Below are positions 16,585 through 57,575 of a stretch of 61,170 nucleotides of DNA, in pieces. The number at the start of each line of letters is the position of its first letter. Position 1 is the first letter of the stretch. The stretch covers positions 1-61,170 of the forward strand of contig JACNGB010000026.1 of NCBI GenBank assembly GCA_014384345.1, written 5' to 3'. Made by a program: the position numbers and the translations under genes. Source of the stretch: Candidatus Thioglobus pontius (GTDB taxonomy: Bacteria; Pseudomonadota; Gammaproteobacteria; PS1; Pseudothioglobaceae). The notes beneath the pieces are model-generated. The model worked only from the letters and a program-made list of their open reading frames with translations, ran no database searches and had not been told where the DNA came from.

Positions 16585-17435
16585 TATTTCAATGTAAATC
16601 CTTTTGGATAACGCATATCGTAAGTCGCCTTATTCAACTTTCGTAGTGGGATTTTTTTTCTAAGCTGAGCATAAATGTCGACAAATTTTTGCAGTCGTTG
16701 CGGTTGTTGATTGTAACCTAGCACAACTGTAATATTAGGCTCAAGATGTAAAGTGTCAATGTTGCTGCGAGTGAATGTGTTAATCGTAAATGTTTCTAAT
16801 TGTGCTTGGTAGGCTTGATAATCTGCATGTAAAGATTTGGCATTTTCAACCTCATCAGCAGAGCGGAGTTCGATGAAATTTTCTGCACTTTCTGCACTTT
16901 CTGCACTTTCTGCACTTTCTGCACTTTCTGCACTTTCTGCACTTTCTGCACTTTCTGCACTTTCTGCACTTTCTGACTGATGATAGAGTAAATTTTTTGG
17001 TTTGATTAGCTTACCTTGTTGTGTGATATAACCTTGGCAATTAGTAGTTTTAGGTGTTGTGCAATCAATATTTTGCCAACGGGTTGCCACTTGATGGGTG
17101 GTAATATGTATGTCGATAACATCTAGCAATGAGCGCTTTACTTGCGCAGTTAACACCCAAGGTTGCTGTTCAAGTGTTTGTTTAATGTTGGATAGGTCTA
17201 ATTGATGCAACTCTACCACCAAAGGTTTTATTTGTTGCTCTAAGGTAGTTTGAGAGACAAGCTCAGGATGGTCGATAGACCAGTTTAGCGTTACTTTAAG
17301 CAGTTTGGTCGGGTTGTACTGGTTCCAGCCCCAAGCAATTAAAGCGGTTAAAGTTATCAGTAGCACCGGCTTAATCCAATACTTAATGAGTTGAAGCGCT
17401 GAGCGTCTACGTCTATTACGTTTTTTAAACTTCAT
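16581..17435 (-). CDS. ftsQ: Cell division protein FtsQ with a SAE tandem-repeat insert
   Basis: Bitopic division protein linking FtsBL to the late divisome. It has a basic cytoplasmic N-terminus, one membrane helix (about residues 20-37), a POTRA domain (about 45-115) and a C-terminal beta domain. A run of about ten Ser-Ala-Glu units follows the segment KPKNLLYHQ at the start of the beta domain; FtsQ proteins I know lack this. The gene overlaps ddl by 11 nt, as in classical dcw clusters, but ftsA and ftsZ do not follow. The opposite-strand membrane protein comes instead. Confidence 0.88.
   Translation of the reverse strand: MKFKKRNRRRRSALQLIKYWIKPVLLITLTALIAWGWNQYNPTKLLKVTLNWSIDHPELVSQTTLEQQIKPLVVELHQLDLSNIKQTLEQQPWVLTAQVKRSLLDVIDIHITTHQVATRWQNIDCTTPKTTNCQGYITQQGKLIKPKNLLYHQSESAESAESAESAESAESAESAESAESAESAENFIELRSADEVENAKSLHADYQAYQAQLETFTINTFTRSNIDTLHLEPNITVVLGYNQQPQRLQKFVDIYAQLRKKIPLRKLNKATYDMRYPKGFTLKY
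16880..16969. repeat. 9-bp tandem repeat (10 perfect copies) inside ftsQ
   Basis: Ten uninterrupted copies of TTTCTGCAC on the plus strand, followed by one degenerate unit. On the coding strand this reads GCAGAAAGT, giving Ala-Glu-Ser. The unit is a multiple of three, so copy-number change by slippage would lengthen or shorten the protein without a frameshift. Confidence 0.97.
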
Positions 17436-35740: not shown

Positions 35741-35768
35741 TTTTATCTCCTAAAAGCATAATAAAAAT

Positions 35769-35824
35769 GAGCGCCGTTTTGATTGCCAAGCCTGATGGGT
35801 GTTCCCAATGCAGCGCTCCTTGGC
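35769..35824 (-). promoter_or_regulatory. SAH riboswitch in the ahcY leader
   Basis: Read on the minus strand, the leader has GGAGCGCTGCA, then a small stem-loop (TGGG..CCCA), then CAGGCTTGG, and finally AACGGCGCTC pairing back to GAGCGC. These are the conserved blocks of the SAH riboswitch known upstream of ahcY in proteobacteria. It starts right behind a TATAAT box and ends about 28 nt before the start codon. SAH binding would be expected to raise ahcY expression. Confidence 0.88.
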
Positions 35825-35833
35825 GAAAAGATG

Positions 35834-35842: not shown

Positions 35843-36014
35843 TTAAACCCAAATCCAAAAATAGAAATCACCAGCCTAGCGCCACCCTTTACCCCATATG
35901 CATTTACAAAAAATAGCCGCCGAACCTATGGGTGGGACTAATATTTTTTACAAACTCATATAGGGCAAGGGGTAACACTATTTTAGCAATTTCTATATTT
36001 AGATTAGGGTTAAA
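35843..36014. mobile_element. 162-bp MITE, copy 1, with 5-bp target duplication TTAAA
   Basis: The element runs from 35848 to 36009 and is flanked on both sides by TTAAA. Its ends are inverted repeats (consensus CCCTAATCYAAAWATAG). The inside is also imperfectly palindromic (CCCTTTACCCCATATG against CATATAGGGCAAGGGG). It has no ORF. It is about 93% identical to the copy after feoB. It lies between metK and the ahcY promoter. Confidence 0.92.
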
Positions 36015-39859: not shown

Positions 39860-40648
39860 ATGGAAGATTTTATTCTTAGGGCGCTGATTGCAGCGCTGGG
39901 AATTTCCGTTATCGCCGGTTCTCTGGGTTGTTTTGTTATCTGGAAGCGTATGAGCTATTTCTCGGAGTCTATTTCTCATTCAGCCTTATTAGGGGTTTCT
40001 TTAGGTTTGGCCAGTGGGCTGGGTATTCATGTGGGTTTGGTGGTGATTGGTGCAATATTTGCCGGGTTGATCGTGGTATTGCAACAACGCCAAATTCTAT
40101 CAAATGATGCTATTTTGGGTATTTTTTCTCATTTAGCTTTATCCTTGGGTATTGTGGTACTTAGCATTGTAAGTGGTACCAATACTGATTATTTTGCTTT
40201 GTTATTTGGCGATGTTTTATCAATCAATAATCAGGATATTGTATGGATTTACGCTGTTCTAGTTGTGGTGGTAGGGCTGTTATTAATTTTTTGGCAGCGG
40301 TTATTATTATTAACTTTAAATGAAGAATTGGCTGTTTCCCAGGGGCTTAATCGCACCAGATATCAGCTGCTATTTATGGGGATGATTGCATTAACAGTTT
40401 CAATTTCAGTGCAGGTTGTGGGCGTCTTGCTCATTACATCGTTGTTGATTATTCCACCTGCTGTGGCCAGAGTGTTTGCTCGTACGCCACATACCATGGC
40501 ATTTCAATCAATTATTGTTTCTATTGCTGCGGTATTAATGGGATTGAGCGCCTCTTTATTTTACGATTTAGCCACTGGGCCAATGATTGTTATTGCGTTA
40601 GGTGTGTTATTTGTCGCCTCACAACTATTCGTTAAAAAAATAGGCTAG
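39860..40648 (+). CDS. znuB: Zinc/manganese-type ABC permease (ZnuB-like)
   Basis: A 262-residue permease with about eight helices and family segments such as GCFVIWKRMSYFSESISHSALLG and VGVLLITSLLIIPPAVAR. The usual partners ZnuA and ZnuC are not adjacent. It starts 14 nt after fur, so the two are co-transcribed. Its stop codon lies at the edge of a displaced prfA 3'-end fragment. Confidence 0.85.
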   Translation: MEDFILRALIAALGISVIAGSLGCFVIWKRMSYFSESISHSALLGVSLGLASGLGIHVGLVVIGAIFAGLIVVLQQRQILSNDAILGIFSHLALSLGIVVLSIVSGTNTDYFALLFGDVLSINNQDIVWIYAVLVVVVGLLLIFWQRLLLLTLNEELAVSQGLNRTRYQLLFMGMIALTVSISVQVVGVLLITSLLIIPPAVARVFARTPHTMAFQSIIVSIAAVLMGLSASLFYDLATGPMIVIALGVLFVASQLFVKKIG

Positions 40649-40677
40649 CGCGTCATTTAGTTCTGTTATCTGGTTGG
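40644..40677 (-). pseudogene. Displaced prfA 3'-end fragment A
   Basis: On the minus strand this encodes [11 protein letters not shown], the last eleven residues of RF1 with one change. Most codon differences from the live prfA end are synonymous (AAT/AAC, GCG/GCA, CTA/CTC, GCC/GCT). It lacks the stop codon, because the fragment runs into the end of znuB. It looks like the oldest prfA end. Confidence 0.8.
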
Positions 40678-40679
40678 AC

Positions 40680-40779
40680 AAGGCAATGCCTTGCACCTAA
40701 AGAAGTGAATTAATCCTAGTAATCTTGAAACAACGGCTACGTGAGTTAAATTTAGTTAACGCTAGAAAGGCTTTGCCTT
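40680..40779. mobile_element. RAGGCAA palindromic element, type 1 (100 bp)
   Basis: Begins AAGGCAATGCCTT and ends AAGGCTTTGCCTT, so the termini can pair as AAGGCAA/TTGCCTT plus CCTT/AAGG. The interior is AT-rich and non-coding. An identical copy occupies 40834-40933 in the second tandem unit. Confidence 0.75.
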
Positions 40780-40793
40780 AGTAGAAATAGGTT

Positions 40794-40831
40794 TTAAGCG
40801 AGTGCGTCGTTTAGCTCTGTTAGTTGGTTGG
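40794..40831 (-). pseudogene. Displaced prfA 3'-end fragment B
   Basis: Encodes [11 protein letters not shown] plus TAA, directly abutting the type 1 element. It is identical to the corresponding part of fragment C because of the tandem duplication. Confidence 0.85.
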
Positions 40832-40947
40832 ACAAGGCAATGCCTTGCACCTAAAGAAGTGAATTAATCCTAGTAATCTTGAAACAACGGCTACGTGAGT
40901 TAAATTTAGTTAACGCTAGAAAGGCTTTGCCTTAGTAGAAATAGGTT

Positions 40948-40995
40948 TTAAGCGAGTGCGTCGTTTAGCTCTGTTAGTTGGTTGGTTTGTTGTTT
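40948..40995 (-). pseudogene. Displaced prfA 3'-end fragment C
   Basis: Encodes [14 protein letters not shown] plus TAA. It differs from the live gene end by two synonymous changes (CAG/CAA and GAA/GAG) plus a change at its outermost base. The fragment abuts the type 2 element. Confidence 0.88.
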
Positions 40996-40997
40996 GT

Positions 40998-41087
40998 AAG
41001 GCAATTCCTCACGTTGGCAAAATACTGATTAACGCACAAGAAATCAATACTTTTGTCAAAGGCAGTAAGTTCGGGAGGTTTTGCCTT
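40998..41087. mobile_element. RAGGCAA palindromic element, type 2 (90 bp), at prfA
   Basis: Begins AAGGCAATTCCTCA and ends AAGTTCGGGAGGTTTTGCCT(T). Both ends are shared with the element at ruvC, while the middle differs. The terminal pair is A..T here and G..C at ruvC, a compensatory change. Confidence 0.85.
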
Positions 41088-41109
41088 GATCGAAATATCT
41101 GTTAATGAT

Positions 41110-42201
41110 TTAAGCGAGTGCGTCGTTTAGTTCTGTTAGCTGGTTGGTTTGTTGTTCAACAATTAAAGGCTCAATAATTGCTTCTAAATCACCTTCCATA
41201 ATTTCAGCTAATTTGTACAAGGTTAGATTGATGCGGTGATCGGTAATACGACCTTGTGGGTAGTTATAGGTGCGAATGCGCTGAGAACGATCACCACTAC
41301 CAACTAATTCTTTACGGGCAGAGGCCTGCTCTTTTTGCTGAACTTGTTGCTGCGCATCTAAAATTCTAGATGCCAAAACTGACATAGCCTGTGCTTTGTT
41401 CTTATGCTGAGAGCGGCCATCTTGACACTCTACCACCGTGCCAGTTGGGATGTGGGTAACACGCACAGCCGAGTCGGTTTTGTTAACGTGCTGACCACCA
41501 GCACCACTCGCTCTAAACGTATCAACGCGCACATCGTTCATGTTAATGTCAATTTCTTCAATGTTTTCAACTTCTGGCATAATGGCAACCGTGCAGGCAG
41601 ACGTGTGAACGCGTCCTTGACTTTCTGTTTCTGGTACGCGTTGTACACGATGAGCACCAGATTCAAATTTAAGTTTTGAATAAACATCAGTGCCACCGAT
41701 GCGAGCAATAATTTCTTTGTAGCCACCATGATCACCCACATTTGAGCTCATGATTTCCATTTGCCATTTTTGTTTTTCACAATAGCGCGAGTACATCCTA
41801 AATAGGTCGCCTGAAAAAATAGAGGCTTCATCGCCGCCGGTTCCCGCACGAATTTCAATAATAATATTTCTTGAGTCGTTAGGATCTTTAGGGAGTAAAG
41901 ATTTTTTTAATTCTAAATCAAGACGCTCTAAGTTTTCTTTGGCTTCGTTAATTTCATCCTTGGCCATGGCTTTAATTTCAGCGTCATCTTCCTCTAACAT
42001 GAGTTTAGCGTCTGCTAGATTTTGCTCTGTGGCCAAATACTCTTGATACTGTTCATTAACTGGAGTGAGCTGTGAATGCTCGATAGATAATTCTCGAAAA
42101 CGTTTAGCATCGCTTGCTACCGCAGGGTCACTTAGCATGGCGCCAACTTCTTCTAGGCGCATGGACATTTGTTCTAATTTAGCAAGAATTGATTCGTTCA
42201 T
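41110..42201 (-). CDS. prfA: Peptide chain release factor 1
   Basis: RF1 recognising UAA and UAG. The catalytic GGQ is in [18 protein letters not shown] near residue 230, and [15 protein letters not shown] follows. Length 363 is normal. It overlaps hemA by 1 nt, as in many gammaproteobacteria. Its last ~15 codons exist in three more copies downstream, separated by small elements; the live end therefore appears to be a replacement. Confidence 0.95.
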
Positions 42202-52969: not shown

Positions 52970-53125
52970 ATGAAAATTCTAGGGGTTGATCCTGGCTCAC
53001 GTGTCACAGGGTTTGGGCGAGGCAATTCCTCATGTCAACTAATTGCAAGCATCGGTATAAATTCCATAACCATTACCCAAATGCCAAGTTCGGGAGGTTT
53101 TGCCTCTATTGTAAATACTTTGTAG
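52970..53125 (+). pseudogene. Displaced ruvC 5'-end fragment, open through the element
   Basis: Starts at ATG and encodes MKILGVDPGSRVTGFG, the first 16 residues of RuvC with one conservative change from the live gene. About 13 of 48 bases differ, nearly all silent. The frame continues without a stop through the 88-bp element (RGNSSCQLIAS...) and ends at TAG 53123-53125, giving a 51-codon ORF. It is most likely a relic, but it keeps its own upstream region and could be translated. Confidence 0.85.
53019..53106. mobile_element. RAGGCAA palindromic element, type 2 (88 bp), at ruvC
   Basis: Begins GAGGCAATTCCTCA and ends AAGTTCGGGAGGTTTTGCCT(C). It shares both ends with the element at prfA; the middle is unrelated or strongly diverged. 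It sits immediately after codon 16 of the displaced ruvC start. Confidence 0.85.
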
Positions 53126-53161
53126 TAAACTGTTTTGCAATTATTTATATTCAAATAGCCA

Positions 53162-53644
53162 ATGAAAATTTTAGGCGTTGATCCCGGTTCAAGGATAACT
53201 GGATTCGGATTGATAGAAGCGCATAAGCTCAAGTTTACTTATTTAGCCAGTGGCTGTATTCGCACCAAAGGTGAGTTGACTGATCGTATCACCACTATCT
53301 TCTTAGAAATTGATCAAATTATTAAGCATCACCAGCCGGATATAGTGGTTATTGAGCGCGCTTTTATGCGTCCTGATAGGCCTAATCCGGATGCTGCTAT
53401 AAAACTAGGACATGCACGTGGTGCGATTATTTCAGCTGCAGGGATGAATGAAGTTGTTATGGTGGAATACAGCCCGAATCAAATTAAAAAAGCTGTTGTT
53501 GGCAAAGGTCACGCAAACAAAGATCAGGTGTCTTATATGGTGTGTGAATCTTTAAAACTTAACAAAGCGCCACAAGAGGATGCAGCAGACGCATTAGCAG
53601 GCGCTATTTGTCATGCTTACCATTTTTACCAAAGTAGGCCTTAA
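53162..53644 (+). CDS. ruvC: Holliday junction resolvase RuvC
   Basis: A 160-residue nuclease with the acidic catalytic residues in MKILGVDPGSRITGFG (Asp7), VVIERAFM near residue 66 and the terminal DAADALAGAICHA. A second copy of its 5' end lies 192 bp upstream, separated by a small element and ~55 bp of AT-rich DNA that now serves as its leader. Its 3' end overlaps the convergent CDF gene by 41 nt. It is not linked to ruvB. Confidence 0.95.
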   Translation: MKILGVDPGSRITGFGLIEAHKLKFTYLASGCIRTKGELTDRITTIFLEIDQIIKHHQPDIVVIERAFMRPDRPNPDAAIKLGHARGAIISAAGMNEVVMVEYSPNQIKKAVVGKGHANKDQVSYMVCESLKLNKAPQEDAADALAGAICHAYHFYQSRP

Positions 53645-57407: not shown

Positions 57408-57575
57408 ACCCTAATCCAAAAATAGAAATCACCAACCTAGCGTCACCCCTTACCCCATCTGCATTTACAAAAAATAGCCGCCGAACCTATGGGTGGGACT
57501 AGTATTTTTTACAAACACATATGGGGCAAGGTATAACACTATTTTAGTAATTTCTATATTTAGATTAGGGATAGA
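57404..57575. mobile_element. 162-bp MITE, copy 2, with 5-bp target duplication ATAGA
   Basis: The element runs from 57409 to 57570 and is flanked on both sides by ATAGA. It has the same length, terminal inverted repeats and interior palindrome as copy 1, with about eleven base differences. The left duplication includes the feoB stop codon. No ORF inside. Confidence 0.92.

Follow-up and report, generated by a model that had tools for sequence, protein, structure and literature searches.

REPIN-like miniature elements with covarying ends, flanked by duplicated ends of conserved genes, in SUP05/Thioglobus genomes

The stretch of DNA analysed here, hereafter the window, comprises 61,170 bp of Candidatus Thioglobus pontius (contig JACNGB010000026.1) and carries short, gene-less elements with paired inverted ends at the 3' end of prfA and the 5' end of ruvC. 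Related elements are found in other genomes of the SUP05 family, where they likewise sit inside the ends of conserved genes and are accompanied by a second copy of the gene end. We read them, with a probability of roughly one half, as miniature, non-coding and non-autonomous mobile elements of SUP05/Thioglobus that are REPIN-like and act by a homing-like replacement of gene ends. The wider proposition, that gene-less elements of ~90 bp, foldable as a single strand and carrying the end of the target gene as cargo, represent a new class of bacterial mobile DNA that inserts harmlessly in conserved genes and swaps gene ends between species, is more tentative, and we hold it at clearly less than even odds.

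The window belongs to a genome of 1.25 Mb in 56 contigs (G000). A preliminary description had noted that a 90-bp element at prfA (40998-41087) and an 88-bp element at ruvC (53019-53106) share AGGCAATTCCTCA at one end and AAGTTCGGGAGGTTTTGCCT at the other, have unrelated middles, and differ in their outermost pair, which is A..T in the former and G..C in the latter; all of this was recovered as described, with exact coordinates. These two elements belong to what we call subfamily A, and the layout with CCTT/AAGG, subfamily B, is present at 40680-40779. An identical second copy of the latter at 40834-40933 was absent from the earlier list, and the prfA locus therefore holds three tandem elements. 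All of the elements run from their LEFT to their RIGHT end on the + strand, and prfA (peptide chain release factor 1, named by Pfam) lies intact on the - strand at 41110-42201. Read along the window, the locus begins with a displaced and diverged prfA 3' end (40641-40677, - strand; 82% identity to the copy beyond the first element), followed by the first B element, a copy of the prfA 3' end with a tail (40780-40831, - strand; 100% identity to 40934-40985), the second B element at a period of 154 bp, a further 3'-end copy with its tail (40934-40994, - strand), the A element, and the intact 3' end of the gene (41109-41156, - strand), to which the preceding copy is 96% identical over 40947-40994. 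The insertion point within the gene, here called X, falls after 41147 for the B elements and after 41156 for the A element. The ruvC locus is simpler, with all parts on the + strand: a displaced 5' end (52970-53016; 77% identity to the intact end), the A element, a tail between RIGHT and the new start (53107-53161), and the intact gene (53162-53644, Pfam), with X after 53208.

The ends follow the pattern RAGGCAA-NN-CCTY / RAGG-NN-TTGCCTY and are paired and covarying. A search with RAGGNNTTGCCTY gave 34 matches on both strands of the window's own genome and none in a reversed-pattern control, so the matches are not due to chance. As many as 32 of the 34 form complete inverted pairs, 16 in all, which bears out the earlier expectation of many copies genome-wide; the other two were rejected as a coding match on contig C26 and a terminator-like hairpin on contig C55. 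Among 37 copies from seven genomes the inverted ends of 7+4 bp are almost invariant. The outer pair is GC in 28 copies, AT in eight and another combination in one, the pair within CCTC/GAGG is CG in 29, TA in seven and TG in one, and an additional covarying pair in subfamily A is GC in 24, AT in six and GT in one. In subfamily A, 99.5% of cells are paired, compared with 27-61% when the partner is slid. These counts confirm that the elements form one family with covarying ends, as first proposed, but because the copies are related and the state of the outer pair tracks the target gene, we put the independent double changes behind the covariation at some three or four.

Subfamily A is mostly 85-90 bp long, with CCTC/GAGG and a kept mismatch of TT opposite TT in the middle of the end, and subfamily B is 97-100 bp long. 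Over all copies the length ranges from 50 to 101 bp, none has coding capacity, and a search of the curated Rfam models gave no match for the element. As single-stranded DNA, six single copies folded more stably than their shuffles do on average, at z values of -1.4 to -4.7. The preliminary description had suggested that a folded single strand or RNA, or else a palindrome-binding recombinase, matters. An RNA function is unlikely, since elements at 5' gene ends and those at 3' gene ends are not oriented alike with respect to transcription; the covariation fits a folded strand and also a pair of terminal repeats to which a single protein binds.

Local alignment of both flanks of each copy gave the same order at every clear copy, whether at the 5' or the 3' end of a gene: a displaced fragment of the gene end, LEFT, a variable middle, RIGHT, a short tail that is often NNNNGAAA, and then the intact gene end with the gene body. 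The old end is thus displaced as a fragment, and the gene is kept whole by the second end on the RIGHT side. All clear copies lie inside gene ends and each comes with the duplication, as had been anticipated from the window. The left junction is exact, with the displaced fragment stopping 0-4 bp before LEFT. X is a fixed point some 50-136 bp inside the end of the conserved gene, the duplicated stretch varies from 17 to 135 bp, and the distance from RIGHT to X reaches 136 bp. The 5'-end targets are ruvC, hemW, nuoB, yhiN, pfkB and a major facilitator superfamily (MFS) gene, and the 3'-end targets are prfA, recR, metH, znuC, fabH, an aldehyde dehydrogenase gene, uvrD (at two points), a ThiF/MoeB-like gene and a DUF1841-like gene; apart from prfA and ruvC, these names come from our reading of the translations. 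Over all genomes there are about 17 different target genes. The two uvrD elements occur at the 3' end of the gene both in the window's genome (contig C8, locus L053) and in G004 (contig C16, locus L058), and between them lie identical duplicates of 122-135 bp.

Two regularities stand out in this anatomy. RIGHT faces the intact gene at 12 of 12 target genes in the window's genome (two-sided P = 0.0005) and in every clear case in all genomes. Further, the distance from RIGHT to X is constant per gene across genomes (yhiN 57/57/57/57, recR 74/74, znuC 87/87, DUF1841-type gene 98/98), and the same genes with the same X recur in genera g1, g6 and g8. There is no common motif at X, only a weak A+T richness after it. 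We also considered that an RNA or DNA guide might direct the element and rejected the idea, as the middles match their own X region no better than shuffled targets.

The two copies of a gene end have had different histories. At ruvC in the window, the displaced and intact 5' ends differ by nine synonymous and two nonsynonymous changes (9/11 synonymous); over the whole genome the totals are 41.5 synonymous and 21.5 nonsynonymous, and over all genomes 160.5 and 83.5. The synonymous excess in the window's genome departs from a model of neutral decay in the displaced copy alone (P = 0.0002). Since a single copy decaying neutrally should accumulate mostly nonsynonymous differences, and those seen are mainly synonymous, the displaced end was still coding until recently and the intact end derives from a separate line. 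At yhiN, the tail and gene end of G026 and G011, which belong to different genera, are identical at 57 of 58 bases, and the gene bodies are 72% identical; this fits transfer between genera, although the stretch is short at 58 bases. It is only for yhiN of G026 that the sequences suggest a donor lineage for the incoming end, and at the hemW and ruvC loci they do not tell which of the gene-end copies is foreign.

These observations bear on the view that the elements are classical miniature inverted-repeat transposable elements (MITEs) with unusually long and variable target duplications, as in IS1549 and IS1634, of which only gene-sparing insertions survive. Inverted ends, the absence of coding capacity and flanking duplications of 17-135 bp would all suit this view, direct repeats of 8-514 bp are reported for IS1549/IS1634 (PMC2266710), and the gene-end copies are identical at some loci (yhiN of G011 and the second uvrD site of G004). 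However, a symmetrical MITE would leave the intact gene equally on either side, the mainly synonymous differences are unlike the neutral decay of a target duplication, and X is identical across genera. For a MITE of a DDE transposon, moreover, no short target duplication of fixed length was found, nor, in 12 genomes with elements or scars, an autonomous parent with the same ends, and the real MITE that does occur in the window is intergenic with duplications of 5 bp. We therefore regard a MITE origin as unlikely.

The elements could instead be shrunken relics or dependants of homing-endonuclease elements, in which a nuclease cuts at X and the break is then repaired from an allele that has the element, so that the element and a foreign end enter together. 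The outcome would be that of the mobile-ORF (open reading frame) hybrids of Glomus and Allomyces, with the native end displaced, a foreign end joined and mainly synonymous differences (PMC3630166), and the patchy distribution and scars described below fit invasion and loss. Against this, no copy (50-101 bp) contains an endonuclease ORF and no long form was found, and one nuclease could hardly cut all targets, since the roughly 17 genes have no motif in common at X and the middle shows no guide-like match. The insertion also leaves X whole in the host gene, and recutting would therefore go unchecked. This origin, too, seems to us improbable.

A covariance-model search of 95 genomes, in which a match on both strands was counted once, found the family in 12, all of them of the SUP05 family, and gave no match in 35 genomes of other families. 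The window's genome has 16 matches, G026 11, G011 six, G027 about five, and G004 and G018 three each; single or degenerate matches occur in G002, G006, G010, G044 and, marginally, G028. The twelfth genome, G014, has 14 matches linked to diversity-generating retroelements (DGRs). Outside SUP05, the RIGHT-end pattern gave about eight matches among 85,000 species, which is approximately chance level, and none with a LEFT end; the RIGHT-end pattern of subfamily A was not found in IMG/VR, and no viral carrier was seen. At ruvC, the relatives G007 and G010 have empty sites and G011 and G004 have scars, and the single-contig genome G002 holds a form of ~50 bp with a duplicated gene end. The middles cluster by target gene (64% versus 44% identity), and the middles of the hemW and fabH elements of the window's genome are 84% identical, a sign that an element jumped between these genes. 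The sequences point to elements that form tandem arrays, move between genes and decay to scars.

A larger autonomous relative, which the preliminary description had named as support for its view, was not found: in 12 genomes with elements or scars, no intact LEFT lacks a nearby RIGHT. Candidate motors were compared by their presence across the genomes. The reverse transcriptase of DGRs adjoins the element in G014 and G006; it was rejected as the motor, being absent from G000, G026, G018 and G027. In G014, contig C1 carries amplified DGR cassettes (loci L251-L264 and L272) consisting of a gene for a cadherin-like variable protein, a template repeat (TR), Avd and a reverse transcriptase of which many copies are broken, and 14 identical element copies lie between the variable protein and the TR. 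The burst-like appearance of these copies is due to the amplified cassettes. In at least one cassette (L253), a gene for an IS30-like transposase stands between the element and the TR.

The best candidate is a putative RAYT-type transposase. Genes for RAYT-type Y1 (HUH) transposases are present in most of the element-bearing genomes examined, among them G000 with genes on contigs C29, C34 and C43, and also in some element-free ones, and many of these RAYT-like genes are flanked by palindromes with an invariant core, AGGCCTTGCCT, and variable but matched stems. The candidacy rests on the similar core beside these genes, on core counts, which are higher in element-bearing than in element-free genomes (P = 0.0006, uncorrected for kinship), and on an 89-bp inverted pair of AGGCCTTGCCT cores that adjoins a RAYT-like gene in G002. 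The exact core is also contained in the degenerate metH copy of G044. Apart from this, RAYT-like genes at L340 and L355-L366 occur in units of ~720 bp bounded by palindromes with the AGGCCTTGCCT core; the stems vary from site to site but agree on the two sides of any one gene, which is unusual as an arrangement of repetitive extragenic palindromic (REP) sequences and RAYTs.

In the mechanism that we propose, the folded strand would be acted on in trans by an enzyme, for which a RAYT-type Y1 (HUH) transposase is the likeliest candidate. The unit moved would consist of LEFT to RIGHT together with the gene end. Two cuts, one at each X, would release it, perhaps in the form of a single-stranded circle, and leave a whole gene behind. 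Insertion would be the reverse step, with the carried end of the gene copy matching X and restoring the gene. Release and insertion would be harmless to the gene because the sequence before LEFT corresponds to the end of the second gene copy, at X. Homologous recombination would then spread the element allele within and between species, as in homing.

Several observations weigh against this reading. No circle, excision event or autonomous form came to light. Agreement between the element ends and the RAYT-associated core is limited to 9/11 (subfamily A) or 10/11 (subfamily B) positions, G010 has an element with neither a Y1_Tnp match nor a core, G008 has a Y1_Tnp match and a core with no element, and the RAYT-like proteins score 26.9-72.5 bits, below the NCBIfam cut-off of 80 bits. 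Close to X, the displaced and the intact end show no differences in yhiN of G011 and in the DUF1841-type gene of G018 and G027, so that gene-end replacement needs gene conversion or donors from the same species to act at such loci as well. Finally, the sharing of sites across genera could partly reflect old vertical inheritance with many losses.

Two further explanations share parts of this evidence. Integrases that act at gene ends yield identity blocks, restored genes and tandem arrays, and the elements could accordingly be miniature integrative elements of a tyrosine recombinase, with the gene end serving as identity block of the attachment site and the paired ends folding, kept internal mismatches included, like the attC hairpin of integrons. 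The attC consensus end boxes are RYYYAAC/GTTRRRY, however, and the ends seen in nearly all copies, RAGGCAA/TTGCCTY, do not fit them; many different gene ends are used, and there is no integrase gene in or beside any inspected copy, which makes this explanation very unlikely. It is just as doubtful that the elements are passive hairpin repeats, regulators or terminators, spread by recombination of neighbouring gene ends between strains. RIGHT does contain GGGAGG, which could be a ribosome-binding site for new starts downstream, as at yhiN, and the mixed ancestry of the ends would follow from ordinary homologous recombination; yet this view leaves the exact LEFT border, the jump between hemW and fabH, the ~17 targets and the fixed orientation unexplained.

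For the reading as mobile elements with gene-end replacement, REPINs offer the closest comparison in layout. REPINs are REP doublets that form hairpins and are moved by RAYT transposases, and they share with the present elements two inverted palindromic end repeats, a poorly conserved spacer, a length of ~90 bp and the lack of coding capacity (PMC3116915). Compensatory changes and tandem arrays that include the flanks add to the likeness, as do the RAYT-like genes that most of the examined genomes with elements possess, several of these genes being bordered on either side by a similar palindromic core. REPINs are extragenic, however, whereas the elements here lie inside conserved gene ends and always have a gene-end copy, number at most ~16 clean copies per genome, and have ends that are not identical to the RAYT-associated core. 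We do not class them as REPINs, because they lack an extragenic position free of gene-end duplication. The earlier statement that no named family has these features is largely correct: REPINs have the layout (PMC3116915), but not the gene-end replacement; no description of the element family was found in the open-access literature.

Mobile-ORF hybrids of fungal mitochondria, such as those of atp6 and other genes in Glomus and Allomyces, are likewise patchy and combine a displaced native end with a diverged, newly joined second end and mainly synonymous differences, but they carry endonuclease ORFs and affect 3' ends (PMC3630166), whereas the present elements are ~90 bp long, non-coding and bacterial, and are found at the 5' ends as well as the 3' ends of many genes. 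IS1549 and IS1634 share the long, variable flanking duplications, but are autonomous transposons with duplications unrelated to gene ends and no orientation rule (PMC2266710), and the elements here are set apart from them by their orientation rule and synonymous divergence. Small, non-coding elements that are reported to be mobile are also found in organelles, as double-hairpin or repetitive hairpin elements. We know of no gene-end replacement by these organelle elements.

In streamlined genomes, mobile DNA is expected in spacers or dispensable genes, and the elements here occupy the ends of conserved genes, among them prfA, ruvC, nuoB, hemW, fabH, recR, metH and uvrD, where the element supplies the working gene end. 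If our reading is true, they would be a bacterial counterpart, within ~90 bp, of the fungal mitochondrial gene-end hybrids, a route by which species exchange the regions around the starts and stops of core genes, and a test bed for the question of whether flanking DNA can be carried by RAYT-type transposases. Invasion and loss can also be read from the scars.

Other features of the window are separate from this family. The MITE-like repeat mentioned above (D2) is unrelated to the elements and occurs twice, at 35847-36011 and 57408-57572, beside metK and feoB; its copies of ~165 bp are 92% identical, have inverted ends (CCCTAATCCAAAAATAGAAAT / ATTTCTATATTTAGATTAGGG) and are flanked by the 5-bp duplications TTAAA and ATAGA. 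An S-adenosylhomocysteine (SAH) riboswitch (RF01057, 53.5 bits) at 35762-35827 lies upstream of the S-adenosylhomocysteine hydrolase gene, and a nine-base tandem repeat, TTTCTGCAC, with about 11 units at 16880-16978, is located inside an ftsQ-like gene.
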